From positions 1-46,754 of the IMG/VR virus record IMGVR_UViG_3300035670_007846: DNA of 46,754 nucleotides; one strand, 5' to 3'. A program made the position numbers and the translations under genes. Within the stretch, counting starts at the first letter, position 1; every line of letters starts with the position of its first letter. The stretch comes from a virus. The notes below the pieces were generated by a model. The model saw only the letters and a list, made by a program, of their open reading frames with translations, was not told where the DNA came from and searched no databases. Below, piece by piece: positions 3,706 to 30,838 of the stretch.

Positions 3706-6609
3706 ATGTCAAATAAACATAACATCATAAAATTTAGAAGAGGTACAGCAGCAGAATGGGCAGCAAGTGAGCCACAGCCAGGAGGAGAAGTTTTACGTCT
3801 TGGAGAACCAGGATGGGAAAAAGATACAGGTAAATTAAAAATTGGCGATGGAGTTACTCCTTGGAATAATTTAGGTTATGTATCTGGTGGAGTTTCTATT
3901 AGTGAAGAAGAATTACAAGACTTAATTGGTAATGGGTTTTTAGTTGGTGGTAGTGGGATTAATATAGATTATAATGATAATGGCAATAGTATAACTATTA
4001 GTACTAGTGGTGTTAGTTTACAAGGTCATACACATACTGCCGCTGATATCACTGATTTTGGATCTAGTGTTAGCGGCCTTCTACCAGACACTTATGATGC
4101 TGCTGTTCCTTGGACAATAAATCACACACTAGTTGATGGAACAAGATATTTAGCTAATGATTTAGTTTATGAAAATGGTCGTTTATATAAAGCTAATTTT
4201 GATAACGAAAGCTTACCAGTTGATAACACAACATATTGGACAGACGTTGGGCCAGGATATCGTTTAAATATCGACGGGCGAGATATTCCAAATATCCCAT
4301 ATCCTGTTAAAGATATAATTGCTGGCACTAATGTTTCTATATCTTCTAGTAGTGGCGTTTATACTATTAGTGCCGACGATCCAACAGCAACAGAGGCTAA
4401 TTCTTTAGTTACTAATGTTTTTAATAAAACAGGAAATCCTATACCAAAATTTAGTGTTGTTTATGTTGATGGAGGTCAAGGTGATCAACCAACAATAGCA
4501 TTAGCAATTGCTAGTGGAGAAGCGACGAGTAGTAAAACTTATGGTATTACTGCTGAAACTATAGATAATATGAGTGCCGGTAAAGTTATTGTTTTTGGAG
4601 CATTAACAGGTGTTAATACTGACCAGTTTAATCCAACAGCACCAACAGGTGATGTTAATGGAGTTACTCTTTATCTTAGTCCAACAACCCCAGGTGGAGT
4701 CACTACAACCAAACCATCTGCACCAGACCATATGGTTAGTGTTGGTACTATAGTTCGTACTCATCAAAATGAAGGTGTAGTAGAAGTAAGAATTCAGAAT
4801 GGTTTTGAATTAGAAGAATTGCATAATGTAGCAATTAGTGGAGTTATTGATGGTCAATTTTTACAATATGATAGCGATAGCGAATTATGGATTCCTAGCA
4901 CTAGTGGTAATTTTAGCATATTATTAGTTAATGGTAGCGGTGTTAGTTTAATTGGACACTCTCATACCTCTAGTGACATTACTGATTTTAATAGTTCTGT
5001 AAGTGGGTTATTACCAAGTGTTACTGGAACGGGTTATGTTAATAGCATATTTGATAACAATATTTATACTATAAGTGTTAGCGGATTACAACCAAGTGGA
5101 AACTATAGTTTAGATGGTCACACTCATTCGTCGTCTGAAATTACAGATTTTAGTAGTAGCGTTAGTGGACTACTGCCAATAATAGCCAATAGTGGTGATA
5201 ACAGAATACTAACTAGTGATGGAACATCATATGGTATTAATGCAGAATCTAATTTATTGTTTAATCCAACAGAAGAACAAACTTTTCAGAATGGAATTGC
5301 TAGAGGACCATCACTAACAATAAAACAACAAAGAAATGAATCTGAAACCGGCTCATCATCTTTTCTTAAGTTAAAAATGTATGATAGTTTGCCTGGAGCT
5401 TCTGGTTTAGGATCTTGTGGAAGAATTCAATTTGAAAAATACAGAGGCACAGAAATTAGTCCATCTGGTGTGGATAATGGAGAAAGTTTGGGAATTATAA
5501 GGTTCATGGCTCCTTGTGCTAGTGGTGTTGATAATGTAGCAAGAATATTTGCTATTTCACAAGGAGTTATAGAGAGTGGTAATAATTTTGTTCCAAGTGC
5601 TATTAGTATTAATACTAGTAGTGGCCCAAATCAATTTGACAATACATTATCGTTAAACGCAGATGGTAAACTTTTTACTGACGGTTATGTAGTAGTTCAA
5701 CCGCCTAGTTCTAAATTAGACACAGATCCAGGTTCTGCAAAAAAATATGGAGTATATATTTATATAGAACCTAGTGGGCTATTAGGATCTCCATCTGGAG
5801 ACCACATTCTTGTTGGATGCAATAGCGTTATTATTCCAAGATCAGCAGCAGAAAATCATAATATAAATTATTATGGCAATAATGGTAATGTGTTTTTAGG
5901 TGTTCCAAGTGGAGTTACTAACGACGGAGCTATTTTCGGAGCAAATTTTAGTGCTTGGCGTAATAGGCTTGGTTCTAATATTGGTTTTGGTTGGTACGAT
6001 GACGACGGATCATTAGATAGGTTGTATGGATGCAATATTGCTTACGGTCATGGTATAGGTCAAAGTGGAGATTTGGGACCAGCACCAACGGGTGTTAATC
6101 CTTATACTGAAGATGCTCAAGGGTTAGTTATTGGTCCACAAAGAGGATATGGCGTAATTAATAATGCTTATGACTTATTAATACTCGACGATAATTATCA
6201 ACTTGGTACTATTAATAATCATTATTCTATATATCAAGTTTCTAATCACCCTAATTACCTTGGTGGTAGTTTAACTGTAAACAATGGATTGTCTGCTCCA
6301 ACCAAAATACATAGTCTTGGTGCTGTATCTGGTAATGTTAGTGTCAGTTATGCTATTGATAAACAAATACAAACACTAACCCTAAATGGGACAGCAACTA
6401 ATTTTATAGAAGGAGCAGGTTGGCCGTCTTCAACTAGTGTTGATGTTCTATTAGAAATAACTGTTTCTAGCACTACCACTGTAACATGGACACTAGTGGA
6501 TGATTGGTATAATCCTCCTCCAACTTTTAATACTGGCAAATATTTAGTTCTTTTAAGAAGTATAGGAACTACTATACAAGGTCATTATATAGGCAATAAA
6601 ACTAATTAA
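3706..6609 (+). CDS. Tail fibre / receptor-binding protein with Mtd-like N-terminus
   Basis: This 967-residue protein begins with FRRGTAAEW ... LKIGDGVTPWNNL (residues 9-57), the hallmark of the Mtd N-terminal domain seen in many phage fibre proteins. Three copies of a G-H-(T/S)-H-(T/S)-x-x-(D/E)-ITDF-x-SSVSGLLP repeat follow at about residues 107, 417 and 470; these resemble phage tail trimerisation repeats. Around residues 140-175 an RYLANDLVYENG ... YWTDVG stretch looks like a small carbohydrate-binding module. The C-terminal 100 residues are a Thr/Val-rich beta domain, probably a sandwich. The protein should form a trimeric fibre for host contact. The ribosome site is weak and translation may be coupled to the upstream gene. 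No diversity-generating retroelement is visible. Confidence 0.85.
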   Translation: MSNKHNIIKFRRGTAAEWAASEPQPGGEVLRLGEPGWEKDTGKLKIGDGVTPWNNLGYVSGGVSISEEELQDLIGNGFLVGGSGINIDYNDNGNSITISTSGVSLQGHTHTAADITDFGSSVSGLLPDTYDAAVPWTINHTLVDGTRYLANDLVYENGRLYKANFDNESLPVDNTTYWTDVGPGYRLNIDGRDIPNIPYPVKDIIAGTNVSISSSSGVYTISADDPTATEANSLVTNVFNKTGNPIPKFSVVYVDGGQGDQPTIALAIASGEATSSKTYGITAETIDNMSAGKVIVFGALTGVNTDQFNPTAPTGDVNGVTLYLSPTTPGGVTTTKPSAPDHMVSVGTIVRTHQNEGVVEVRIQNGFELEELHNVAISGVIDGQFLQYDSDSELWIPSTSGNFSILLVNGSGVSLIGHSHTSSDITDFNSSVSGLLPSVTGTGYVNSIFDNNIYTISVSGLQPSGNYSLDGHTHSSSEITDFSSSVSGLLPIIANSGDNRILTSDGTSYGINAESNLLFNPTEEQTFQNGIARGPSLTIKQQRNESETGSSSFLKLKMYDSLPGASGLGSCGRIQFEKYRGTEISPSGVDNGESLGIIRFMAPCASGVDNVARIFAISQGVIESGNNFVPSAISINTSSGPNQFDNTLSLNADGKLFTDGYVVVQPPSSKLDTDPGSAKKYGVYIYIEPSGLLGSPSGDHILVGCNSVIIPRSAAENHNINYYGNNGNVFLGVPSGVTNDGAIFGANFSAWRNRLGSNIGFGWYDDDGSLDRLYGCNIAYGHGIGQSGDLGPAPTGVNPYTEDAQGLVIGPQRGYGVINNAYDLLILDDNYQLGTINNHYSIYQVSNHPNYLGGSLTVNNGLSAPTKIHSLGAVSGNVSVSYAIDKQIQTLTLNGTATNFIEGAGWPSSTSVDVLLEITVSSTTTVTWTLVDDWYNPPPTFNTGKYLVLLRSIGTTIQGHYIGNKTN

Positions 6610-6618
6610 GGAATATAT

Positions 6619-6930
6619 ATGTATTACAATGATAATGATAAAATTTTAATAAGAAAAATACCTAAAAATTTAATTAAACCAGACGGAACCTTATTTATTA
6701 ATTTTGATCAAAGCGATATTAATACTATTGCCGATTATGGTTATTATGTTGTTCGTAATGATAACAATACTCCTCCAACCAATAATAACGTTGAAGATGT
6801 TGATAAAAGACTTATACTTTTAGAAAAACCATATGTTGATGTTATTAGGGTTTGGATTGACAAAACAGTTCCAGATAATGATAATATAAAGATAGAACCT
6901 ACCACAGAAGAGCAAGAAAATGTATTATAA
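6619..6930 (+). CDS. Small virion-module protein, related to the next gene
   Basis: The 103-residue product begins MYYN and shares with its neighbour an I-A-D-x-G-Y-Y-x-V-R block and a later LEKPYVDVIRxWID block, so the two are paralogues. It lacks the neighbour's C-terminal half. Such small proteins sit next to tail fibres in many phages and may be fibre connectors or assembly factors, but I cannot name a tested function. Its 3' end overlaps the next gene by 11 bases. An AAGGA site at 6609 precedes the ATG. Confidence 0.65.
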   Translation: MYYNDNDKILIRKIPKNLIKPDGTLFINFDQSDINTIADYGYYVVRNDNNTPPTNNNVEDVDKRLILLEKPYVDVIRVWIDKTVPDNDNIKIEPTTEEQENVL

Positions 6931-7414
6931 TATTAATAATCAACAAATAGTTAATAGTGTGCCAAGTACTATCACGTTAAATAATGGCACAATCGTTGCT
7001 GGAGAAAATTTAGATATTGATATTTTAGCTGATGGTGGGTATTATACCGTGCGTAGCGATACTCCTTCTCAACCAGAAAGTACTGTAGAAAATATAGCCC
7101 AAAGAGTAGTTAATCTTGATAAACCTTATGTTGATATAGTACGCACATGGATAGATATACCAGTTGTTGTGCCAGATAGTATAAGTGCAAGACAAGTGCG
7201 ATTATGGTTAATAGATAATAATATAAGCTTAACAAGTGTAGAATCTGCTATAGATACAATTGTTGATGAAAAGTTAAGAGAAAAAACACGAGTAGAATGG
7301 GAATATGCTCCATATATTGAACGTAATCATCCACTAATAGAAAGTCTTGCTCAATACTTGGGTTTAACTAGCGAACAGATAGATCAAGGATTTATTATAG
7401 CAAGTCAGTTATGA
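6920..7414 (+). CDS. Tail-fibre-associated protein (paralogue of 6619-6930 with extra domain)
   Basis: Residues 1-75 repeat the plan of the upstream gene (GGYYTVRSD, then LDKPYVDIVRTWID). The C-terminal half, starting at ARQVRLWLIDNNI and ending with WEYAPYIERNHPLI and ALA-type hydrophobic helices, matches a module I know from many phage tail-region proteins of unknown role: a helical domain with R-V-E-W-E-Y and xxHPL. 164 residues, no signal or membrane span. It overlaps both neighbours by 4-11 bases. Likely a virion accessory protein in tail-fibre assembly or attachment; that role is inference from context. Confidence 0.65.
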   Translation: MYYNINNQQIVNSVPSTITLNNGTIVAGENLDIDILADGGYYTVRSDTPSQPESTVENIAQRVVNLDKPYVDIVRTWIDIPVVVPDSISARQVRLWLIDNNISLTSVESAIDTIVDEKLREKTRVEWEYAPYIERNHPLIESLAQYLGLTSEQIDQGFIIASQL

Positions 7415-8454
7415 ATACTTTTAATAAAAATAATAGTTTATTAGCTATACAGAAATCAGAATATCAATACGATCCAAATAAATTAGTTTTGGTATATGAT
7501 ACAACATTAGGGGACGGATCAAACACTATTTATGCTCCTGTTGGTGGAACTGTTAGCACTACTATAGATTGGGGGGATTCTACTAGTAATTTTTACAACT
7601 TTGGTGGAATTGTGTACGCATCACACACTTACTCTTCCCCAGGAATTTATGTTGTTCAATACTCTGGAAGTATGAGCAAATTAAGTCACCAAACAGTACC
7701 ACCAGTAGCATCAGCTAGACAAAAACTAATTGGATGCTTAAGTTTTGGAAATATTGGATTAAAAGATATGTTTCAGGGATTTTCTAGCTGTACTAATCTA
7801 ACAACTGTTCCATCTTCGTTACCATCGGGGTGGTTATCAATATATGCTATGTTTAGTGGTTGTACTAATTTTAATAGTCCAGGAGTAAGTTCTTGGGATA
7901 TTACAAACAATATATTTGTCAATCAGAGTTTAATCAGTATGTTTGCAAATTGTGTTAATTTTAATCAACCATTAAATAATTGGAATATGACAAATGTTAT
8001 TAATATTAATAGCATGTTCGATGGTTGCACTAATTTTAATCAACCACTAGATAATTGGGATACTAGTAATATAATAAATATGTCTTTAACATTTAGAAAT
8101 TGTATTAATTTTAATCAAGATATTGGTGGTTGGGACGTTGGTAATGTTTCTATTATGAGCGTCATGTTAAGCAATGCTGATAGCTTTTCTCAGAACTTAG
8201 CCAATTGGGATTTGAAATCTATTGTTCAGTCAACATCAACCAATGGTATGAATAATTTCATGAACGCTGCTACAGGTTTATCTACTGCTAATTATGACGC
8301 TACTTTAATAGGATGGAATAATAATAAAGCTAATTTTGCTAATAATATTCGTGTGCATTTTGGAGGTAGCAAATATTCTGCGGCTGGGCAAGCAGCACGA
8401 TCTGCTCTGGTAGCTTATGGGTGGACTATTACTGATGGTGGTTTGGCACCATAA
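7411..8454 (+). CDS. BspA-like (DUF285) repeat protein, copy 1
   Basis: The 347-residue product has a PKD-like beta domain at about residues 25-85 (IDWGDSTSN ... HTYSSPGIYVV) and then BspA-type leucine-rich repeats at about 135-265. The repeat core is F-x-x-C-x-N-F-N-Q-x-(L/I)-x-x-W-(D/N), seen at least four times. This DUF285 repeat is known from surface adhesins of Bacteroidetes, Mycoplasma and some phages and viruses. The last 60 residues (GLSTANYDATLIGWNN onward) form a conserved end domain. The next gene is a full-length tandem copy. A host-binding role on the virion is likely from position next to the tail fibre. Confidence 0.78.
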   Translation: MNTFNKNNSLLAIQKSEYQYDPNKLVLVYDTTLGDGSNTIYAPVGGTVSTTIDWGDSTSNFYNFGGIVYASHTYSSPGIYVVQYSGSMSKLSHQTVPPVASARQKLIGCLSFGNIGLKDMFQGFSSCTNLTTVPSSLPSGWLSIYAMFSGCTNFNSPGVSSWDITNNIFVNQSLISMFANCVNFNQPLNNWNMTNVININSMFDGCTNFNQPLDNWDTSNIINMSLTFRNCINFNQDIGGWDVGNVSIMSVMLSNADSFSQNLANWDLKSIVQSTSTNGMNNFMNAATGLSTANYDATLIGWNNNKANFANNIRVHFGGSKYSAAGQAARSALVAYGWTITDGGLAP

Positions 8455-8456
8455 AT

Positions 8457-9494
8457 ATGAATACTTTTAATAAAAATAATAGCTTATTAGCCACACAAAA
8501 ATCAGAATATCAATACGATCCAAATAATTTAGTATTGGTATATGACACAACATTAGGAGATGGGTCGAACACCATTTATGCTCCTGTTGGCGGAACTGTT
8601 AGTGTTACTATAGATTGGGGCGATGGAACTAGCAATTTCTATAATTTTGGAGGCACGGTGTATGCTTCTCATACCTATTCTTCTCCAGGAATTTATGTTG
8701 TTCAATATTCTGGAAGCATGAGTAGATTAAGTCACGGAACAGTACCGCCAGTGGCATCTGCGAGACAAAAATTAATAGGATGCTTAAGTTTTGGACAGAT
8801 AGGACTAAAGGATATGTTTGGTGGATTCAGCAGTTGCACCAACCTAATAACTGTTCCATCCTCATTACCATCAACATGGTTAACCATATATGGAATGTTT
8901 ACTAATTGTACCAATTTTAATAGTTCTGGAATAAGTAGTTGGAATATCGGTGGTGTTTCAAACATTAGTTTAATCAATATGTTTGTAAACTGTATTAATT
9001 TTAATCAATCATTAAATAGTTGGGATATGACAAATGTTACAACTATTACTAGTATGTTTGACGGCTGTAGTAATTTCAATCAACCTTTAAACGCTTGGAA
9101 CACCAGTAATATAACAAATATGGTTTTAGCATTTAGAAATTGTATTAATTTTAACCAAAATATTGGCGGGTGGAATGTTGGTAATGTTACTAATATGAGC
9201 AGTATGTTAAACAATGCTGATAGTTTTTCTCAAAATCTAGCAAACTGGGACTTGAAATCTATTAGTCAAACAACAACAACCAACGGCTTGGCTAATTTTA
9301 TGGTTAATGCTACTGGTTTATCTACAGTTAATTATGATGCTACATTAATAGGATGGAACAATAATAAGGCTAATTTTGCCAATAATATTCGCGTTCATTT
9401 TGGAGGTAGCAAATATTCTGCTGCTGGTCAAACAGCGCGATCAGAGCTTATATCTTATGGGTGGATTATTTCAGACGGCGGTTTAGCACCATAA
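8457..9494 (+). CDS. BspA-like (DUF285) repeat protein, copy 2
   Basis: This 345-residue protein repeats copy 1 almost residue for residue at its N-terminus (MNTFNKNNSLLA, PKD-like IDWGDGTSN) and in the end domain. The central repeats (residues about 140-265) carry most differences, for example in the segment before the FNQ repeats. The two genes lie 2 bases apart. Many codon differences are silent, so the duplication is not very recent. The pattern of stable ends with a varying repeat core fits paired adhesins with different receptor preference. Start ATG has no obvious Shine-Dalgarno, so it may depend on re-initiation. Confidence 0.78.
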   Translation: MNTFNKNNSLLATQKSEYQYDPNNLVLVYDTTLGDGSNTIYAPVGGTVSVTIDWGDGTSNFYNFGGTVYASHTYSSPGIYVVQYSGSMSRLSHGTVPPVASARQKLIGCLSFGQIGLKDMFGGFSSCTNLITVPSSLPSTWLTIYGMFTNCTNFNSSGISSWNIGGVSNISLINMFVNCINFNQSLNSWDMTNVTTITSMFDGCSNFNQPLNAWNTSNITNMVLAFRNCINFNQNIGGWNVGNVTNMSSMLNNADSFSQNLANWDLKSISQTTTTNGLANFMVNATGLSTVNYDATLIGWNNNKANFANNIRVHFGGSKYSAAGQTARSELISYGWIISDGGLAP

Positions 9495-9501
9495 ATTTAA
9501 T

Positions 9502-9546
9502 TTGGTGTATAATCTAATATAAACTACTATTTACGGAGAAAATATT
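9502..9546 (+). promoter_or_regulatory. Putative promoter/leader with repeated motif and GGAG site
   Basis: TTGGTGTATAATCTAATAT at 9502 includes a perfect TATAAT hexamer (9508-9513) and repeats the TTGGTGTA word found at 2781. It is followed by ACGGAGAAAATATT and the ATG at 9547, nearly identical to the leader before 2834. A shared phage promoter class is possible, perhaps an extended -10 type, since no good -35 is seen. Confidence 0.4.
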
Positions 9547-9771
9547 ATGATTGATATAATAGCAATAGATCCATTAAAACCAATTAATAATAAATACGCT
9601 ATTTGTTCAGCTTTACCAACTGGATTTTATACGAAAAAATTAATTAGAAAAAATCGCCCATTAGACCTAACCATAAGTAATATCGAGTCTAAATATAGCG
9701 ATAGATTTGATGATCCTAGCTATTATTATGGTGGTGGCAACGTTGATGGTGGTGATGTTGTTGATCCTTAG
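9547..9771 (+). CDS. Unknown 74-residue protein
   Basis: Not recognised. The product has a mixed N-terminal half with a CSALPTGFYTKK segment and a Gly/Asp/Tyr-rich tail (YYYGGGN, GGDVV). There is no membrane span. It is the first gene after a repeated leader motif and a good GGAGAAAATATT ribosome site, so it is probably expressed well. It separates the virion-type genes from the membrane-protein cassette. Confidence 0.55.
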   Translation: MIDIIAIDPLKPINNKYAICSALPTGFYTKKLIRKNRPLDLTISNIESKYSDRFDDPSYYYGGGNVDGGDVVDP

Positions 9772-9813: not shown

Positions 9814-10209
9814 ATGAAAACAAAAGCTGGCTATAAAACTAGTGAATTTTGGGTAACGGTTGTTAGTGTCGTATTTAGTTGTTTATATTTAGTTGGTATT
9901 ATTAGTGAAAAACAACAATCAGAAGAACTTATACATATAGTATCTACAGCATTAGAAAGTTGTATTGTTGTTGCTGGTCAGTTATATGTATTTTATCGCT
10001 ATGTAAAAGGACGTACAGAAGTGAAAAAAATTGAGGCAGAAGAACAGTTAAAATATACTGAAATGGCTGTTCCAGAACAAGTTGTTGAAGAAATTGTACG
10101 TAAGGTTTTAGAGGAGAAAAATAATGAATCCAAAAATAGTGATAGCGGAACAATTGGAAAAAATAGTGGGGCAAGCCAAAGAAAGCCTAATAAGCGTAAA
10201 AAGAGTTAG
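9814..10209 (+). CDS. Small two-span membrane protein, holin-like
   Basis: The 131-residue product has two hydrophobic spans at about residues 12-32 (FWVTVVSVVFSCLYLVGI) and 45-65 (ESCIVVAGQLYVFYRYV), then a charged helix and a low-complexity Lys/Asn/Ser tail. Two spans plus a charged tail is the usual shape of a phage holin or holin-like protein, although no specific family can be named. The last 86 bases also encode, in another frame, the start of the next gene. It is the first of a run of small membrane proteins leading to a peptidase gene. Confidence 0.6.
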   Translation: MKTKAGYKTSEFWVTVVSVVFSCLYLVGIISEKQQSEELIHIVSTALESCIVVAGQLYVFYRYVKGRTEVKKIEAEEQLKYTEMAVPEQVVEEIVRKVLEEKNNESKNSDSGTIGKNSGASQRKPNKRKKS

Positions 10210-10531
10210 TGTTGGCGAAGCTTGGAAAATTTTACAATTAGCAACAAGTAGTATTGTGCAATCTTTAGAAAGTCTAGCAACAGAATTTTCTGGAGCAGAA
10301 AAAAAGGCTTTAGCAATAGAATTAATATCTAATTTTTATGATAAAGTGTTTACATACGTAGATTTGCCAATTATTCCACATTTTTTAGAAACAATGTTGC
10401 ATAAGTATGTAAAAGGTGTATTAATGATTATGGTGGCTGCTTCGATTGATGCTATGGTCACAATATTTAAGAATACGGGTGTGTTTATTAAGAATTCGGT
10501 AAATAATGGAGAAACTAACAATGGGAACTAA
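10124..10531 (+). CDS. Unknown phage membrane-associated protein
   Basis: The ATG at 10124 follows a strong GAGGAG site at 10111-10116, so this start is well supported although it overlaps the previous gene by 86 bases in a different frame. The 135-residue product is helical, with a FYDKVFTYVDLPIIPHFLE segment (about residues 66-84) and a hydrophobic span at about 90-112 (VKGVLMIMVAASIDAMVTIF). It may sit in or on the membrane and act with the holin-like protein. I know similar small phage proteins but no tested role. Confidence 0.65.
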   Translation: MNPKIVIAEQLEKIVGQAKESLISVKRVSVGEAWKILQLATSSIVQSLESLATEFSGAEKKALAIELISNFYDKVFTYVDLPIIPHFLETMLHKYVKGVLMIMVAASIDAMVTIFKNTGVFIKNSVNNGETNNGN

Positions 10532-10949
10532 TTACGGGTTATTTGCAGAACTAAATTTTGGAGAAAATTTTAGTGATTTTTCTAGTCGTATGAAACCAAC
10601 GGATTTGTTATTGTACGCAGGTATTGCTGTAGTAGTTTATGTTTTGTTTCAGAAAAAATTAACGCCAGTAAAAGATATGATTTTAAAATTATTTAAACAA
10701 GGGGCAGATAAGGTTAATAATACTATCAAAGAATTTAATCCTATTGTTAGTGATGGTGTTGTTCAGGTTCCAAAAGTTACTGATACTCCTAATGCCACAA
10801 AAATAACTGAAAATGTATTTTTTGATTTAATTCACAGTTGGAAACAAACTCGTGACTTAGCTGTTAAAGCTGGTTGTGATGAAGCTATTGAAAAGGCTGA
10901 TGAAATGTTTCCCCTACTAAGTGTAACAAATTGTAAAGATAATAAATAA
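10521..10949 (+). CDS. Small membrane protein of unknown function
   Basis: I prefer the ATG at 10521 (TGGAGAA 9 bases before it) to the in-frame ATG at 10506, giving 142 residues. There is one membrane span at about residues 23-42 (LLLYAGIAVVVYVLF), followed by a soluble part ending in a predicted helix with SWKQTRDLAVKAGCDEAIEK. It overlaps the previous gene by 11 bases. Part of the membrane-protein cassette 9814-13589; I do not recognise the family. Confidence 0.6.
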   Translation: MGTNYGLFAELNFGENFSDFSSRMKPTDLLLYAGIAVVVYVLFQKKLTPVKDMILKLFKQGADKVNNTIKEFNPIVSDGVVQVPKVTDTPNATKITENVFFDLIHSWKQTRDLAVKAGCDEAIEKADEMFPLLSVTNCKDNK

Positions 10950-10959
10950 AGGATGTTAT

Positions 10960-11463
10960 ATGAATAATAAATTTCTACTAGTAATAGCCGCTGTTTTAAT
11001 TTTTATTGGCGTTACACAACCTGATTTTAATAATATAAATATTTTTGCTCCAACACCAGTAATTGTTGATGACAATAAAGTATCAGTTGAAAAACCAACT
11101 GACGCCACAGTATTAGAATTGTGTAAAAAAGTTACTGCATCATTAAAAAATGGTAGCTCTGATCGCAAATATGATGCTCCAAGATTAGCTAGTTTGTATA
11201 GCGATATGAATGTTCTTATTCAGCTAGATGGTGAAGACGAAACTATTAGTAATACAGAAGCTGTTCGTGCAGCTAATATTTTAGCTGGAAAAATGCTTCG
11301 CATGAATTTAGAAGATAAATATCCAGGATTAGGTACTAGTTGTAGTGAAGTGATTACAAATAGCATTGGTTTAAAAAATCTAAAATTAGATCCTGAATTA
11401 CGTATAAAAGCTGCTGCTAGTTTTAGATATTTAGCTTGGGCTATGATGGAAGGAGCTAAATAA
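10960..11463 (+). CDS. Membrane-anchored or secreted unknown protein
   Basis: The 167-residue product begins with a short basic start and a hydrophobic stretch (residues 5-20, FLLVIAAVLIFIGV) that could be a signal anchor, then a soluble, mostly helical domain. There is no lipobox Cys after the hydrophobic segment. AAAGGATGT precedes the ATG. Its stop overlaps the start of the peptidase gene by 1 base, so the two are probably translated together; it might present or restrain the peptidase at the membrane, which is inference only. Confidence 0.6.
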   Translation: MNNKFLLVIAAVLIFIGVTQPDFNNINIFAPTPVIVDDNKVSVEKPTDATVLELCKKVTASLKNGSSDRKYDAPRLASLYSDMNVLIQLDGEDETISNTEAVRAANILAGKMLRMNLEDKYPGLGTSCSEVITNSIGLKNLKLDPELRIKAAASFRYLAWAMMEGAK

Positions 11464-12395
11464 TGTCAAGTATGACACCAAAACAATTATTAGAAAAATA
11501 TAGTAATGGACTGCCTGGATGTTCTTGGGAACAAGATCAATACGATTACTTAATGAAAAACTCCAGATATTCTATGTTTAGATATGGTTCATCTGAAATT
11601 AAGTATTCTGGCGTTGGCAAATTAAGTCGTCCTTATTTGAGTTATTTAAAGTTTGAAGGTAAAAGAGCATTTAAAGAGAAACAGGTCACAGGCGACTGTG
11701 TAAGCCAGTCTACTAGAAACGCTTGTGATATAACAAGAGCAGTAGAAATTGATATTCATAATGAACCCGAAGCATGGATTAGTATTGGAGCAACAGAACT
11801 TATTTATGGTAGTCGCGGTCATGGTGGACAAGGAATGAGTTGTGCTAGAGCGGCACGTTTTGTTAGTCAAGATGGCGGAATTGTTGTTAGACAAAAATAT
11901 AATAGTGTTGATTTATCTCAATATCAAGGTATGTTAGGGGCAAAATGGGGTAGTAGAGGCATTCCTTCAAACGTAATGGAACTAACTACAAATAAAATAC
12001 AAACAGTTAGTTTAGTAAAAACAGTAGAAGAAGCTAGAGATGCTTTAGCTAATGGTTATGCTCTTAGTGTTTGTAGTGGATATGGATTTAGTAGTGTTAG
12101 AGATAATAAAGGTTTTGCTAGACCTTTAGGCAGTTGGAGTCATGCTATGGCGTGGATAGCTTGTGATGATACTGGTTCTAATGGCCCAGCATTTTTAGTT
12201 CAAAACAGTTGGGGTAAATGGAATGATGGTGGTCATCCAGAATGGGGTCCGATTCCAGACGGATCATTTTTAATTACTGCTGATGTTGCAGAAAAAATGT
12301 TAAAGGGCAATGGGGCTTATGCGTTTTCTAATTTTGACGGCTTTCCTGCTCAAGATCTACCAGATTATGGATTTGAGCAATACTTAGGTGTATAA
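11463..12395 (+). CDS. Papain-like (C1-type) cysteine peptidase
   Basis: The 310-residue protein carries a full papain-type set in the right order: Gln74 and Cys79 in QVTGDCVSQS, His227 in SWSHAMAW, and Asn248 in VQNSWG. The QNSWG block is diagnostic for clan CA family C1. No signal peptide or propeptide inhibitor domain is visible. It sits in a cassette of small membrane proteins, with a 1-base overlap to an anchor-type protein. It could be an endolysin-type peptidase cutting a protein-containing envelope, a virion maturation protease, or an effector against host proteins. Family confidence is high, role is open. Confidence 0.8.
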   Translation: MSSMTPKQLLEKYSNGLPGCSWEQDQYDYLMKNSRYSMFRYGSSEIKYSGVGKLSRPYLSYLKFEGKRAFKEKQVTGDCVSQSTRNACDITRAVEIDIHNEPEAWISIGATELIYGSRGHGGQGMSCARAARFVSQDGGIVVRQKYNSVDLSQYQGMLGAKWGSRGIPSNVMELTTNKIQTVSLVKTVEEARDALANGYALSVCSGYGFSSVRDNKGFARPLGSWSHAMAWIACDDTGSNGPAFLVQNSWGKWNDGGHPEWGPIPDGSFLITADVAEKMLKGNGAYAFSNFDGFPAQDLPDYGFEQYLGV

Positions 12396-20144: not shown

Positions 20145-20566
20145 AATATCCGTCAAAATATAGCAATGGTAAAGAAGTTACTGCGGCACAATTTATTACA
20201 GAGATAATTTGTGAACGAATAGCGAAACGTAAAAAGAAAGATTTGCATTATCGTTTTTGGGTTTCTAAGGAGTGGGCTAAAGAATACAGAGGACAAATTG
20301 GTTCTGCAAATAAATTACTTGACACCTATGATCCAAAAGATATAATTGAAGCCCTTAGAAGCAATAAGGGATTAACGATTTACTCATTACGCGCTCCACA
20401 TCTAAAAGATATTATAGATCAAGTAGTGAGTAAAAACGCATCAAAACCAACTATAGAATATAAAGAAGTTATAAGACATCAGATGGATACTGGTCGTAAA
20501 GATTTAAAAAATAAAAGTAATATACTAGATAAATTAAAGGATATTGATAATGGCAACAATGTATGA
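20141..20566 (+). CDS. Unknown protein before recA
   Basis: The 141-residue product has a mixed helical body (RFWVSKEWAKEYRGQIGSAN, then LLDTYDPKDIIEAL) and a hydrophilic tail with Asp/Asn repeats. The DPKDIIEALR block suggests a small winged or helical domain. I do not know the family. Its end overlaps recA by 17 bases, so it is co-translated with it and may act in recombination or replication. Confidence 0.58.
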   Translation: MKYPSKYSNGKEVTAAQFITEIICERIAKRKKKDLHYRFWVSKEWAKEYRGQIGSANKLLDTYDPKDIIEALRSNKGLTIYSLRAPHLKDIIDQVVSKNASKPTIEYKEVIRHQMDTGRKDLKNKSNILDKLKDIDNGNNV

Positions 20567-22586
20567 TAATATTAAAAAAGATTTTGGAACAGACATTATT
20601 CTATCTGCGAATAATATTATTGATAAAAAGTCAATAATTATACCTGTTAGTCCAGCTTTGGATCTTATACTTGGTGGTGGAGTTCCAGAAGGAAGTTTTG
20701 TTGTATTAACTGGTCAGCCTAAATGTGGTAAGATGGCAAGATTAACTGATATTGTTTATACTCCAAATGGACCATCAACTATGGGAGAAATGAAAGTTGG
20801 TAGCACAGTGTCTACTCCAGACGGTAAAACCTCAAAGGTTGTGGGAGTATACCCACAAGGAGTTCAGGATATTTATGAAGTTTGTTTTAACGATGGCACA
20901 AAAACTTATTGTGGATTAGAACACAATTGGACCGTTTCCAAAAACAATAGACAAAATAATTATGTTACTATGACTTTAAAAGAAATTTTAACAGAAGGCT
21001 TAAGATACAATGATCGCTGGAAGTGGAAGATTCCATTAACAAAACCTGTTTTTTTTAAACAAACTAAAAAACTTTCTATAGATCCTTATATTTTAGGTTG
21101 TTTAATTGGTGATGGTGGACTAACAGATAAAACGCCAAAATTTACATCGTCGGATAATTTTATACTCAATAAATTTAATAATTTTTGTAAACAACGAGGA
21201 TTGTCCTTTAAACATATTAATAAATATGACTATAGAATAAGTGGTAAAAATATAGGAGGTCTATTAGTTTCTAATACATTAACTAAAGATCTAAAAAAAT
21301 TACATTTAATGGGTTGTTCTTCTCATAATAAATTTATCCCAAAACAATACAAATATGCTTCTATTAGCAATAGATGGAAACTAATAAGAGGATTAATGGA
21401 TACTGATGGTTCTAATAATAAAGGTCTTAGGGCTGAGTATACAACAGTTTCCAAATTATTAGCTTTTGACACACAAGAAGTTTTAGAAAGCTTAGGTTAT
21501 ACTTGCCAAATAAAACCAAGAACTACAACTTGTAATGGTAAAAAATTTAATTCATATAGATTATACATTCATGGCAATGATATTAATCAATTATTTAGTC
21601 TACCAAGGAAAAAGTTTGTTCACACCAGAATTAAACCCGATCTACATAGAACTATAATTGATGTTAAAAAATTTAGTCACGAAGAAGCTCTATGTATAGA
21701 GATCGAAAATACAAATGGGCTATATTTGACCAATAATTTTATTGTAACACATAATACTACCACTTCACTAGATTTTGCAGGCACAGCACAAGGTGAGCAG
21801 TATGCCTTGAAAGACATTAGAAATGTGTATTATCTAAACATAGAAGGTAGACTTAAGAAAAGAGACTTACAAGGTATCCCGCATCTAAATCTTGATAAAT
21901 TTCACATAATAGGTTCTCAAACCGGCAATATTCTTCATGCTGAAAAATATCTACAAATGGCAGAAAGAATTATAAATGAAGACCCTGGTTCTGTACTAAT
22001 TATAGACTCTTATTCTGCATTATGTACAGAGGCTGAGATTACTAGCGATATGGATAAGATGCAAAGGGCAGACGGCGCAAAATTACTGGCTAAATTCTGT
22101 CGTAAAGTCGCTAATGTTATTCCTGTTAATAAGAATATTGTTATTGGTATTACTCACCTAATGGGTAATCCAACTGGTTATGGTGCAGAATTTAAAGAGA
22201 AGAGTGGGCAGGCTATTGCTTATCAAACAGATATTAAACTACGAGCTAAAAGTTTTAAACCTTGGTTAGTTGGTACTGATAATGTGCAAATTGGTCAAGA
22301 GGTAGAATGGCATACTCAATGTTCAGCATTAGGATCGCCTGGAGGTAATATAACTTCATATATTCGTTATGGTAAAGGTATTGATAAAGAAATGGAGCTA
22401 ATAAATTTAGCTGTTGATATTGGATTAATCAATAAGGGTGGTGCTTGGTATAGTTTAGATTTTCTTGATGGCAATAAAACCAAATTCCAAGGAACTGAAA
22501 AAGTTCGCAATTTCTTATTGGAAGACAAATCCGTATATGATACTTTGTATGCCGAAGTTAAAAAAACTATGGGTATATCAGTATGA
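20550..22586 (+). CDS. recA: RecA/UvsX-like recombinase interrupted by an intein
   Basis: After removal of an intein at 20733-21755 the product is 337 residues. The N-extein (61 residues) has VSPALDLILGGGVP and ends at Walker A GQPKCGK. The C-extein continues TTTSLDFAG, then LNIEG (the ATPase Glu), Walker B VLIIDSYSAL, and GITHLMGNPTGYG near the DNA-binding loop. It should form ATP-dependent filaments on single-stranded DNA for strand exchange. I take the ATG at 20550; the TTG at 20544 has no better site. It overlaps the Vsr-like nuclease by 4 bases. Because the intein breaks the P-loop, the unspliced protein cannot be active. Confidence 0.9.
   Translation: MATMYDNIKKDFGTDIILSANNIIDKKSIIIPVSPALDLILGGGVPEGSFVVLTGQPKCGKMARLTDIVYTPNGPSTMGEMKVGSTVSTPDGKTSKVVGVYPQGVQDIYEVCFNDGTKTYCGLEHNWTVSKNNRQNNYVTMTLKEILTEGLRYNDRWKWKIPLTKPVFFKQTKKLSIDPYILGCLIGDGGLTDKTPKFTSSDNFILNKFNNFCKQRGLSFKHINKYDYRISGKNIGGLLVSNTLTKDLKKLHLMGCSSHNKFIPKQYKYASISNRWKLIRGLMDTDGSNNKGLRAEYTTVSKLLAFDTQEVLESLGYTCQIKPRTTTCNGKKFNSYRLYIHGNDINQLFSLPRKKFVHTRIKPDLHRTIIDVKKFSHEEALCIEIENTNGLYLTNNFIVTHNTTTSLDFAGTAQGEQYALKDIRNVYYLNIEGRLKKRDLQGIPHLNLDKFHIIGSQTGNILHAEKYLQMAERIINEDPGSVLIIDSYSALCTEAEITSDMDKMQRADGAKLLAKFCRKVANVIPVNKNIVIGITHLMGNPTGYGAEFKEKSGQAIAYQTDIKLRAKSFKPWLVGTDNVQIGQEVEWHTQCSALGSPGGNITSYIRYGKGIDKEMELINLAVDIGLINKGGAWYSLDFLDGNKTKFQGTEKVRNFLLEDKSVYDTLYAEVKKTMGISV
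20733..21755 (+). mobile_element. Class 3 intein with LAGLIDADG endonuclease in recA
   Basis: 341 residues lie between Lys61 and Thr62 of the RecA P-loop. The intein starts with Met, not Cys/Ser, and ends THN before a Thr. It has the WCT set of class 3 inteins: Trp in LEHNW (block B), Cys in ALCIEIE (block F), Thr in IVTHN (block G). Two dodecapeptide motifs, LGCLIGDGGL and LIRGLMDTDGS, mark an apparently intact LAGLIDADG homing endonuclease. Splicing should begin at the block F Cys. Class and borders are by motif, not tested. Confidence 0.85.
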
Positions 22587-27048: not shown

Positions 27049-28079
27049 TTACATACTTTAGAAGTTCTAGTTTTAATGCCCATACAATGTGTGAGCAACA
27101 ATATTTTATCGAATATGTACTTGGTTATCGAGGATTATCAAATCAAAAAGCGGACAAAGGCACTATTATCCACAAGGTGCTTGAAATTTTAGCTTTTATT
27201 AAATTTGCTAAACAAAATAATCAACCTATCATTACAGACGATATTGTTGGTAATATTTCTGTAGATGATTTTAATATATCTAATATTTATTCTACAGTTT
27301 ATAAGTATTATACTAATTTAAATACTCATCATGAATGGAAACCAAAAGACTATAAAGATTGTTGGAATTGGATTGAAAAAGCTCGTAATTTTAATGATGG
27401 TATGTTTGATCCTCTTAAACGCAATATTGTTTGTCCAGAACAACATTTTGATTTTGTAATTGACAAACCTTGGACAAAATATGAATATAATACTCCAGAT
27501 GGAAAATTAGAAGGTAATTTAGCATTAAAAGGAACAATTGACCTTATTACTAAATTAGATGATAATTTTTTAGAAATTATTGATTGGAAAAGTGGAAGAA
27601 GATTAGATTGGGCTACTGGTAAACAAAAAACTCAAGAAAGTTTTGAAAAAGATCCACAGCTACGAATATATCATTATGCCGTAAGCCATTTGTATCCGAA
27701 CATTGACAATATTATGTTTACTATTAATTATATTAATGATGGTGGACCGTTTTCTGTATGTTTTCAAAAGTCGGATCTTTTAGACACAGAAGATATGTTG
27801 CGCAAAAAATTTGAAAAAATTAAATCTGTAAAAAGACCATATCGTAACAGAAGTTGGAAATGTACCAAATTATGCCCATTCGGTAAAACAACTTTTGCAG
27901 ATACTGATATTCCTATTCTAGAAGAATATAGAGATAATCAAGTAACAGAAAAGGGTGAATGTATGACTAAGTGCGAACAAATTGCTCATGATGTAGAGTT
28001 GCATGGAATCGATTTTGTGGTACAATCATACAAGCGATCAGGACACTCTTTTGGTTTTTATAAAGCTCCGGGTGAATAA
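27048..28079 (+). CDS. Cas4/RecB-like PD-(D/E)XK exonuclease, likely non-ATG start
   Basis: From the first ATG (27087) the protein has 330 residues with GTIIHKVLE (His29), GTIDLI (Asp152), IIDWKSGRR (Asp166, Lys168) and QLRIYHYA (Gln191). Cys2 and three C-terminal Cys (WKCTKLC, later Cys) suit an iron-sulfur cluster. The frame stays open upstream, and codons 27048-27086 encode ITYFRSSSFNAHT, which looks like the conserved first helix before the first cluster Cys. I therefore place the start at ATT 27048 (TAATT junction); 27087 is the conservative choice. It likely trims DNA ends for recombination. Confidence 0.75.
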   Translation: MTYFRSSSFNAHTMCEQQYFIEYVLGYRGLSNQKADKGTIIHKVLEILAFIKFAKQNNQPIITDDIVGNISVDDFNISNIYSTVYKYYTNLNTHHEWKPKDYKDCWNWIEKARNFNDGMFDPLKRNIVCPEQHFDFVIDKPWTKYEYNTPDGKLEGNLALKGTIDLITKLDDNFLEIIDWKSGRRLDWATGKQKTQESFEKDPQLRIYHYAVSHLYPNIDNIMFTINYINDGGPFSVCFQKSDLLDTEDMLRKKFEKIKSVKRPYRNRSWKCTKLCPFGKTTFADTDIPILEEYRDNQVTEKGECMTKCEQIAHDVELHGIDFVVQSYKRSGHSFGFYKAPGE

Positions 28080-29968
28080 TGACTTACACTCCATTACATG
28101 TACACACGCACTACAGTTTACAATCTGGATTATCTCAGCCTAAAAATATTATAGAACGATGTAAGCAGTTAAACATTAATACATGTGCTATTACAGACAC
28201 CGGGGTTTTATCTGGAACTGTCTCATTCTATAAAGAATTAACAAAAAACAAAATTAAACCTTTACTTGGTTGTGAGTTAAATCTATGTTTTAATGACGCT
28301 ACTAACAAGTCAGAAAGTAATACTAAATTAGGCAAAATAACACTGTTGTGTCGTAGTTTGCAAGGCTGGAAAGACTTGATCAAACTCGTGTCTACATCTA
28401 ATACTGTAGAATACTTTCATAATAGTCCAAGATTAGATCTTAATAAGATTCAATCGTTAATACATGAAAACTCATTAGTGTGCATTACTGGTTATTACGA
28501 TTCATATTTATGGCACTTAATTACCTCCGAAAATGAACTTGTGCCAAATTGGGAGGACGTTTTTAATGAACACATAAAAAAACTTTATAATATTTTTGGT
28601 AAAGAAAACGTATTTATTGAATTGCAAATGTTTGATAATATATATAACAAATATGATATAGGACTACAAATTCGTCAATTATGCAATAAACATAGTTATA
28701 AACTATTAGCTGGTATTGATAGTTATTATTGTGAATCGAGCGATAGTGCTGATCATAAGGTGTTAATTTGTAGTGGTTTAAAAACAACTCTTCCAGAATT
28801 ATCACGCAAAGTAATATCTAATAAGAACACTGGCGTTAATCACTTTTTTGAATCTGATAAATATTGCATATTGTCTTATGAAGATATGCAGACTTTGTAT
28901 GAGCCAGAAGAAATTAATAACACAAATAAAGTAGCTGAAATGTGTGAAGAATTTAGTCCATTAAGTAAACACGTTTTACCAGAATTTGATTATCCAAATA
29001 CCTTCACCAATGATGCTGAGTATTTACGCCATTTGTGTCGTCAGGGATGGGTGAAAAAAATTAATCCACGATTTAAAAAAGAAGAACAAACAGCATATAT
29101 AGATCGTATAAAATATGAATTAGAAGTATTAGAAACTGCTGGATTATCTAGTTACTTTTTAATCATTCAAGATATTTTACAATATGCAAAAAATAATAAC
29201 TGGTTATGTGGCCCAGGAAGAGGAAGTGCTGCTGGTTGTTTGGTTTCTTATTTAATTGGTATTACCAGTGCAACAGTCGATCCGATTGAATATAATCTTC
29301 TGTTTGAAAGATTTTATAACTCTGGACGTAACACAAAAGATCGTATTTCTATGCCAGATATTGATGTTGACATACCTATCAATCATAGAGATACTATTAT
29401 TCAATATATAAAAGATAAATATGGCGTAGACAGAGTATCTCAAATGATTACATTTACTACACTTAAAGGTCGTGGAGCATTAAAAGAAGTATTAAGAGTA
29501 CACGCAAATGTTTCCTTTGAAGAAATGAACGCCATTACAAAACATATTCCTAATGAAGCTACTATTGCAGATGAACTGCAAGATATAAAAGAAGAAGAAG
29601 GCCATGCGTCAATTATTAAGTGGGCTTTGGAAAATGAGCCAGATAAGTTTAAAGAGTGGTGTGAGATAAATGAAAATGGTGAATTGGTTGGGCCGCTTGC
29701 CAAACGTTTTGAACAAGCTATTAGAATGGAAGGCGTCAAAATACATCAATCAAGACACGCAGCAGGTGTAGCTATTTCGGCCTCGCCACTATATGAACTA
29801 TGTCCAATGATATACGATCCTAAGAGCGATCAATATTTAGCTGGTCTAGAAATGAACGATTTAGACGCTTTGGGAATTATTAAATTCGATATTTTGGGAA
29901 TTGCGTTATTAGATAAGATGATGTTTATTAACACTTTAATAAAGGAGACAAAGAATGCTACTATCTGA
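28079..29968 (+). CDS. dnaE: DNA polymerase III alpha, N-terminal half (PHP and palm)
   Basis: The 629-residue protein holds a PHP domain (HVHTHYSLQSG at 7-17, ITDTG, GCEL) and the polymerase palm with GPGRGSAAG, the PDIDVD pair (Asp429, Asp431) and the third catalytic Asp604 in KFDILGI. It stops shortly after this, before the fingers domain. The rest is encoded at 30835-33102. All three metal-binding Asp residues are thus in this half. PHP residues look intact, so it may have proofreading or phosphatase activity. It starts at a TAATG junction with the exonuclease gene. No split-intein sequence is seen at its end. Confidence 0.88.
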   Translation: MTYTPLHVHTHYSLQSGLSQPKNIIERCKQLNINTCAITDTGVLSGTVSFYKELTKNKIKPLLGCELNLCFNDATNKSESNTKLGKITLLCRSLQGWKDLIKLVSTSNTVEYFHNSPRLDLNKIQSLIHENSLVCITGYYDSYLWHLITSENELVPNWEDVFNEHIKKLYNIFGKENVFIELQMFDNIYNKYDIGLQIRQLCNKHSYKLLAGIDSYYCESSDSADHKVLICSGLKTTLPELSRKVISNKNTGVNHFFESDKYCILSYEDMQTLYEPEEINNTNKVAEMCEEFSPLSKHVLPEFDYPNTFTNDAEYLRHLCRQGWVKKINPRFKKEEQTAYIDRIKYELEVLETAGLSSYFLIIQDILQYAKNNNWLCGPGRGSAAGCLVSYLIGITSATVDPIEYNLLFERFYNSGRNTKDRISMPDIDVDIPINHRDTIIQYIKDKYGVDRVSQMITFTTLKGRGALKEVLRVHANVSFEEMNAITKHIPNEATIADELQDIKEEEGHASIIKWALENEPDKFKEWCEINENGELVGPLAKRFEQAIRMEGVKIHQSRHAAGVAISASPLYELCPMIYDPKSDQYLAGLEMNDLDALGIIKFDILGIALLDKMMFINTLIKETKNATI

Positions 29969-30128
29969 ATTGGCTATCGGTGACAAGTTTATATATAAAG
30001 GTATTGCTTATACAAAAATTAAACCAGAAAAAGTATCTTGTTGCAAAACATATACAGCCACTAAAGATGAAAATAATCAAAAAGTAATGATAAAACCTAA
30101 TGAAAAAGTAGAAAAGGTAAGTGAATAA
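29955..30128 (+). CDS. 57-residue phage protein between polymerase halves
   Basis: An AAAGGAGAC site precedes this ATG, and its first 14 bases overlap the polymerase N-half gene. The peptide (SELAIGDKFIYKGIAYTKIK) folds as a small beta-type domain, with CC at 29-30. Similar short proteins with L-x-x-G-D-x-F are common in phages but have no assigned role. It shares one base with the next start (TAATG), so the whole run is coupled. Confidence 0.68.
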   Translation: MLLSELAIGDKFIYKGIAYTKIKPEKVSCCKTYTATKDENNQKVMIKPNEKVEKVSE

Positions 30129-30838
30129 TGCTTATAAACAATATTTGCGTATTTGATTTTGAAACCGATGGTTCTGATCCAAAAGTTTGTAGTCCAGTGC
30201 AGTTGTCTGCTGTAATGGTGGATTCTCAAAGATTAGAAATTATAAAAGATTCGGAATTTAATGTTTTTCTAAAGCCAGATAGAATAGCAGAGTCTAAAAA
30301 ACCAGATATTTCCTTATATAGCGATTCTGATATTTTAGATTGGCATGGAAAAATTAAAAATCAAACTAGAGAACAAATATTTGATAGTTGGTTAAAATAT
30401 CCAGATCAAAAACATAGTTGGCAACAATTTACAAATTATCTGGATAATTATCATGCTCATAGGAGTAGGGGAAATACTCAATTTTCGGCACCAATTGCTT
30501 GTGGCTATAATATAGTAAGATTTGATTTAAAGATTATGCAGCGTTTGGCAGAAAAATATGGTAATCTAAATAAAGAAAAGAATATCAATATATTTCATCC
30601 AAGGGATCAAATTGATTTAATGGCTGTTACTCTTTTATGGTTTGAGGGAATATCTGAAATAAAATCATTAGCATTAGATAATTTAAGAGATTATTTAGGT
30701 ATGGATAAAACTAATGCACATGATGCTTTTAAAGATGTTACAGATTGTGCCAATATGTTGATTCGTTTTATGAGATTGCATCGTAAACTATCTAACAAAA
30801 TTAAGTTTAAAGGATCATTTGCGGAATCTATTTTATGA
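30128..30838 (+). CDS. DnaQ-like DEDDh 3'-5' proofreading exonuclease
   Basis: The 236-residue protein has the DEDDh set: FDFETDG (Asp10, Glu12), NIVRFD (Asp133), and NAHDAFKDV (His198, Asp203). It belongs to the DnaQ epsilon type and is expected to proofread for the polymerase III alpha pieces encoded on both sides. The gene sits inside the split polymerase, with a 4-base overlap to the second half. No clamp-binding tail is evident. Confidence 0.85.
   Translation: MLINNICVFDFETDGSDPKVCSPVQLSAVMVDSQRLEIIKDSEFNVFLKPDRIAESKKPDISLYSDSDILDWHGKIKNQTREQIFDSWLKYPDQKHSWQQFTNYLDNYHAHRSRGNTQFSAPIACGYNIVRFDLKIMQRLAEKYGNLNKEKNINIFHPRDQIDLMAVTLLWFEGISEIKSLALDNLRDYLGMDKTNAHDAFKDVTDCANMLIRFMRLHRKLSNKIKFKGSFAESIL

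Follow-up and report, generated by a model that had tools for sequence, protein, structure and literature searches.

The window analysed here, the 46,754 nucleotides of IMG/VR record IMGVR_UViG_3300035670_007846, carries two very similar genes in tandem, D1 and D2, a short distance downstream of a tail fibre gene (Table 1). This raises the question of what a phage does with two such proteins, and whether they belong to its tail. The phage is large and uncultured, and we consider that D1 and D2 are probably paralogous receptor-binding tips of its tail fibre, with a probability of roughly 0.7, on the basis of gene order, conservation and sequence exchange at this locus.

Table 1. Features of the tail fibre region of the window
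Feature	Positions	Strand	Description
Tail fibre gene	3706..6609	+	N-terminal Mtd_N (Pfam, E 1.6e-9); PHROG tail families
Small gene	6619..6930	+	Homologue of the N-terminal half of the protein encoded by 6920..7414
Small conserved gene	6920..7414	+	phrog_6034 (E 5.6e-21); C-terminal domain 'SARQVRLWLI...VEWEYAPYIERNHPLI'; 54-81% identity in relatives
D1	7411..8454	+	347 aa; tag, PKD-like domain, five DUF285/PARCEL repeats, C-terminal cap
D1 tag, MNTFNKNNSLL	7411..7443	+	4-nt overlap of its start with the upstream stop
D2	8457..9494	+	345 aa; tandem paralogue of D1, identical architecture, five repeats
D2 tag, MNTFNKNNSLL	8457..8489	+	Retained, though not abutting the small gene
Promoter-like motif TTGGTGTATAATCTAATAT	9502..9520	+	Recurs in the equivalent gap of most relatives
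Small conserved gene	9547..9771	+	MANDI... family in relatives; conserved there; end of the cassette

As the initial annotation had noted, the two genes are full-length copies separated by 2 nt ('AT' after the TAA of D1). Their pairwise alignment shows 83% amino acid and 81% nucleotide identity, with a single 2-residue indel. D1 and D2 matched DUF285 (161.6 bits, E 8e-48, and 163.2 bits, E 3e-48, respectively; Pfam, cut-off 25) and TIGR02167, the PARCEL repeat (53.5 and 37.8 bits; cut-off 30); with repeats of 25-26 residues, both belong to this family at the protein level. A weak PKD match precedes the repeats in D2, and annotated relatives are named 'BspA family'. The AlphaFold model of D1 (pLDDT 79, pTM 0.77), built from a five-sequence alignment of D1, D2 and three relatives, has a beta-strand domain at about residues 25-90, followed by the repeats and a C-terminal portion containing two helices. 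Residues 1-16, which include the tag, are of low confidence (disordered). The model matched viral predicted structures named BspA family (best E 1.6e-12), and no solved structure in the PDB was related to it below E 0.001. The tandem comes from one metagenome contig and all relatives found are single-copy, as would be expected if it were an assembly artefact; nevertheless, 19% of nucleotide positions differ between the copies, no shared exact run exceeds 32 nt and the junction is clean, which makes an artefact most improbable.

Relatives were gathered by means of the conserved neighbouring gene at 11463-12395, which gave 80 related IMG/VR loci out of 403 matches, on contigs of up to 244 kb; all relatives used are metagenomic. 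Among these 80 loci, the part that separates the 9814-12395 block from the genes upstream is variable. Members that share the cassette were recovered by searching for a DNA pattern of the tag and for the small gene at 6920-7414, while peptide-pattern searches with D1 and with the D1/D2 alignment gave no matches. The 11463-12395 product has papain-like motifs (GDCVSQS, SHAMAW, NSWG) and an identity of 64-68% across at least 80 IMG/VR contigs (L006-L085). It had no match in 50,697 GenBank phage records, and the window apparently represents a large-phage clade without isolates. Among genome bins, this gene matched only those of Lokiarchaeota and SAR202, which we do not trust as host evidence. In one relative, a DUF1559/SBP_bac_10 protein with a prepilin-type N-terminus is encoded directly 3' of the tip gene (L138:5500-6747); proteins of this type are common in Planctomycetota, and this one is a possible hint of a host in that phylum.

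No head or packaging genes were identified in the 46.7 kb window, which is a fragment. Two other loci in it are of interest in their own right. The RecA-like recombinase ORF at 20544-22586 has an ATPase-like first part and a LAGLIDADG domain (280-347), with the RecA matches following that domain; this looks like an intein. DNA polymerase III alpha (28079-33102) is spread over two ORFs, 28079-29968 and 30835-33102, with the ORF 30128-30838 between them; the ORF at 30835-33102 begins with an intein splicing domain, and the arrangement may be a split intein.

The gene order around D1 and D2 is a constant cassette: a fibre gene whose product has a conserved C-terminal domain, two small genes, the slot gene and a small gene of the MANDI type. 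The fibre C-terminal domain, about 115 aa, is conserved in all cassette-bearing relatives, with matches in L117, L122, L123, L131, L134, L135, L136 and L138. The product of 6920..7414 is a candidate adaptor or chaperone. The sequence TTGGTGTA occurs twice in the window (2781 and 9502), each time in a gap just 5' of a gene, and again before the MANDI-type gene in most relatives; it is a possible late promoter.

Slot proteins begin with an 11-residue tag, whose consensus in seven lineages besides the window is M-(N/S)-(T/S)-F-x-K-N-N-(S/N)-L-(L/M). The slot, the tag and a 4-nt overlap of the slot gene start with the preceding gene are all common to L117-L121, L122, L123-L130, L134, L135/L137 and L138; in L098 the tag is present and the contig end cuts off the upstream part. 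The match is short (11 residues), and all the carriers found form one phage group. Two tips were observed only in the window among these tagged lineages, the others having one each as far as seen. No tip is present in L136 or in L131-L133; in the latter, a tag-like remnant with a broken start codon matches at 17/24 nt, a level also reached by 16 of 46,692 24-mers of the window, so that its interpretation as a former tag is suggestive only.

Since the start of the tag overlaps the upstream stop codon, and since constant flanks would give homology for gene exchange, the tag could be a conserved translation-initiation or recombination sequence and the slot a mere cargo site for unrelated genes. 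However, the tag is conserved at the protein level while its codons carry synonymous changes, and D2 retains 11 of 11 tag residues at a dS of 0.8 without abutting the small gene; the tag is therefore not a by-product of gene overlap, and its retention in D2 suggests that the peptide itself has a function. Moreover, the cargo domains are adhesin-like: repeat, PKD-like or FGE/C-type-lectin-like. We thus regard an initiation or recombination sequence as unlikely, and a docking peptide as the better reading.

The proteins behind the tag are of several kinds. PKD-DUF285 proteins with six (L122, L135) or eight (L134) repeat units are found beside the five-unit D1 and D2, so that, judged from the sequences, the solenoids of different phages are longer or shorter by entire units of about 25 residues each. 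In the L123 type, the tag is followed by another N-terminal domain and by divergent repeats that resemble the C-terminal half of D1 (E 1e-8), and the tip of L098 is similar to this type by eye. L117 and L138 carry the tag before an FGE-sulfatase-like domain (Pfam). A short conserved N-terminal peptide thus precedes unrelated distal domains at one locus, and the slot, by sequence comparison, holds at least two unrelated folds. Comparison of L122 with L117 gives the clearest case: identity is 87% for the gene upstream and 84% for the gene downstream, and the tags agree at 10/11 residues, whereas the rest of the tip is unrelated (24%), a pattern that we read as tip exchange between close relatives. 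Together with the position of D1 and D2 directly after an Mtd_N fibre gene and two small genes, this swapping of unrelated domains behind a constant tag supports the earlier suggestion that they are adhesin-like tail proteins.

Two observations on individual slot proteins are reported separately. The FGE-sulfatase-like tips (L117:4492-5463, L138:4531-5493) seem circularly permuted, as the usual C-terminal half, 'VGTNGG.SAYGTYDQSG...RGFRVAS', precedes the N-terminal half, 'YNVTNNEYKDFL...LPNINEWTKAGFYKGG...YWLYATQSN'. Pfam FGE matches the second half only, one weak PDB alignment has the halves in swapped order, and the AlphaFold model has a pLDDT of 28; the permutation is apparent and unproven. 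In L034 (2-2614 and 5224-6306), a second DUF285 gene, whose product has linkers rich in Pro and Thr, is located directly 5' of the fibre gene in the same phage; the L034 slot gene also scores for DUF285 on the antisense strand, and no such antisense match was seen in the window.

The combination of PKD and DUF285 occurs in cellular proteins too. DUF285/PARCEL proteins ('BspA family') are familiar chiefly from the membranes or surfaces of cells (PMC2996958), and D1 and D2 share with them the repeats of about 25 residues, the PKD-like N-terminal domain and the variation by whole units. D1 and D2 could accordingly be phage-encoded proteins of the infected cell surface rather than virion parts, acting for example in adhesion or superinfection change like the DUF285 lipoproteins of mycoplasma. 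Unlike PARCEL surface lipoproteins, neither D1 and D2 nor the other tagged proteins have a visible N-terminal signal peptide or lipobox (the N-terminus of the pair, MNTFNKNNSLLAIQKSEY, read directly, has no hydrophobic stretch and no Cys), and they lie in a tail fibre cassette in every relative with known flanks. The dyad symmetry of PARCEL coding DNA was also not found in the D1 and D2 cores when these were compared with their own reverse complement (27/200 and 82/200 synonymous shuffles reached the score), a method that differs from the MEME palindromes of Roske 2010. A cell-surface function is unlikely on these grounds, and tail fibre tips remain the preferred reading.

The initial annotation held BspA-type repeats to be rare in phage virions. 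They are uncommon, DUF285 repeats being matched in 105 of 50,697 GenBank phage records, often at several places per record; they are nevertheless known in phages, as in ORF200 of Vibrio phage pir03 (PMC7765460), and in virions, where two DUF285 proteins of the giant virus AaV were found (PMC7507832). Large phages with such repeats include Vibrio pir03, Sphingomonas PAU and Escherichia Goslar, whose proteins are distant from D1 and D2 (about 24-43% identity). Tandem DUF285 genes occur in another virus, with products about 41% identical (L179/L180).

We then compared D1 and D2 region by region. Amino acid differences amount to 9/122 (7%) in the N-terminal part (1-122), 38/151 (25%) in the core (123-275) and 12/72 (17%) in the C-terminal part (276-347), their density being higher in the core than in the N-terminal part (p=9e-5) and not significantly so relative to the C-terminal part (p=0.17). 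Most differences are thus in the repeat core, as first described; the ends, described as nearly identical, are so at the N-terminus (93%) and only partly at the C-terminus (83%). In the same order, dS was 0.83, 0.89 and 0.68, and dN/dS about 0.07 (0.065), 0.18 and 0.15, with intervals all below 0.33. Purifying selection acts on D1 and D2 in every region, along the whole length, and positive selection in the core was rejected at the level of the whole region. No sequence found is closer to either copy than the other copy. The high dS, similar along the gene, indicates that the duplication is old, and the longest identical run of only 32 nt (one alignment-gap artefact set aside) leads us to reject recent gene conversion.

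These results bear on the proposal that the pair is a diversifying system in which recombination or divergence after duplication makes new specificities. The excess of differences in the core over the N-terminus, the variable repeat number between phages and the high density of non-synonymous changes at codons ~145-183, the highest in the pair, would fit such a system; against it, dN/dS is well below 1 in all regions, long identical tracts are absent and D1 and D2 have the same number of repeats. The paralogues are also under tighter constraint than slot proteins compared across phages: whole-gene dN/dS was 0.135 (CI 0.09-0.20; dS 0.82), compared with 0.39 (CI 0.29-0.53) at a similar dS of 0.73 between the single tips of L134 and L122, a rough comparison given that repeat numbers are unequal and that alignment errors may inflate the L134-L122 dN. 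Furthermore, no reverse transcriptase (RVT_1) of a diversity-generating retroelement was present in the window or in 13 related records, some of them fragments. Diversification is accordingly quite unlikely, and a widening of host range through recombination or specialisation, as initially envisaged, is not supported by this pair. Its conservation argues instead for similar receptors of the two proteins, which we continue to regard as fibre tips.

Separately encoded tips have precedents. In T-even phages, the tail-fibre tip adhesin gp38 is a separate protein, encoded after the fibre gene, that decides specificity, and gp38 of phage PP01 has reportedly been studied in relation to OmpC. The likeness to the window is one of layout and role, the tip being encoded separately after the fibre gene; the fold differs (a PKD-DUF285 solenoid), and two small genes separate fibre and tip. 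A closer parallel is found in K1E/K1-5/SP6 and in Klebsiella (KP32/KP34) phages, where N-terminal peptides of 7 and 11 residues are thought to dock a second receptor-binding protein (PMC6872550). As in those phages, a conserved peptide of 7-11 residues precedes exchangeable host-binding domains, and a constant gene order surrounds a variable slot with one or two binding proteins per phage (PMC6872550). The window group differs from them in the peptide sequence, in having no recognised depolymerase, in its repeat or FGE/lectin-like tips, and in that its two tips carry the same tag instead of separate ones.

By analogy, we interpret the slot protein as a receptor-binding tip that can be exchanged and that docks through a short peptide, along the lines proposed for the K1-5/SP6 and Klebsiella phages. 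The tag would be the docking peptide for the conserved fibre end or for one of the two small proteins, and the PKD-DUF285 part would face outward and bind a polymer or protein of the host surface. The fibre C-terminal domain and both small proteins occur in tip-less relatives too. Identical tags on D1 and D2 would imply competition for the same sites, so that either a mixed oligomer would form or virions would carry both kinds of tip. A wider proposal, quite possible but tentative, is that the fibre slot is a universal socket, the 11-residue plug allowing DUF285 solenoids, divergent repeat proteins and an FGE/C-type-lectin-like domain to swap as whole genes; duplication of a plug gene would then equip a single virion with two types of tip for the same socket.

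DUF285 proteins in phages, tandem DUF285 genes, DUF285 proteins in virions (AaV) and docking peptides were already known. As far as we have searched, the tag itself, the range of folds behind it and the presence of two same-tag tips in one phage are new. Through the tag, probable host-binding tips become identifiable from sequence in phages whose adhesins have no recognisable fold, and it offers a concrete candidate for a docking peptide. The tandem pair suggests that this lineage keeps two near-equal tips over the long term, which makes dosage, mixed oligomers or two similar receptors a more plausible explanation than fast diversification. If docking is true, DUF285 repeats, which are present in many cellular and viral surface proteins and whose function is little known, would gain a defined mechanical context.
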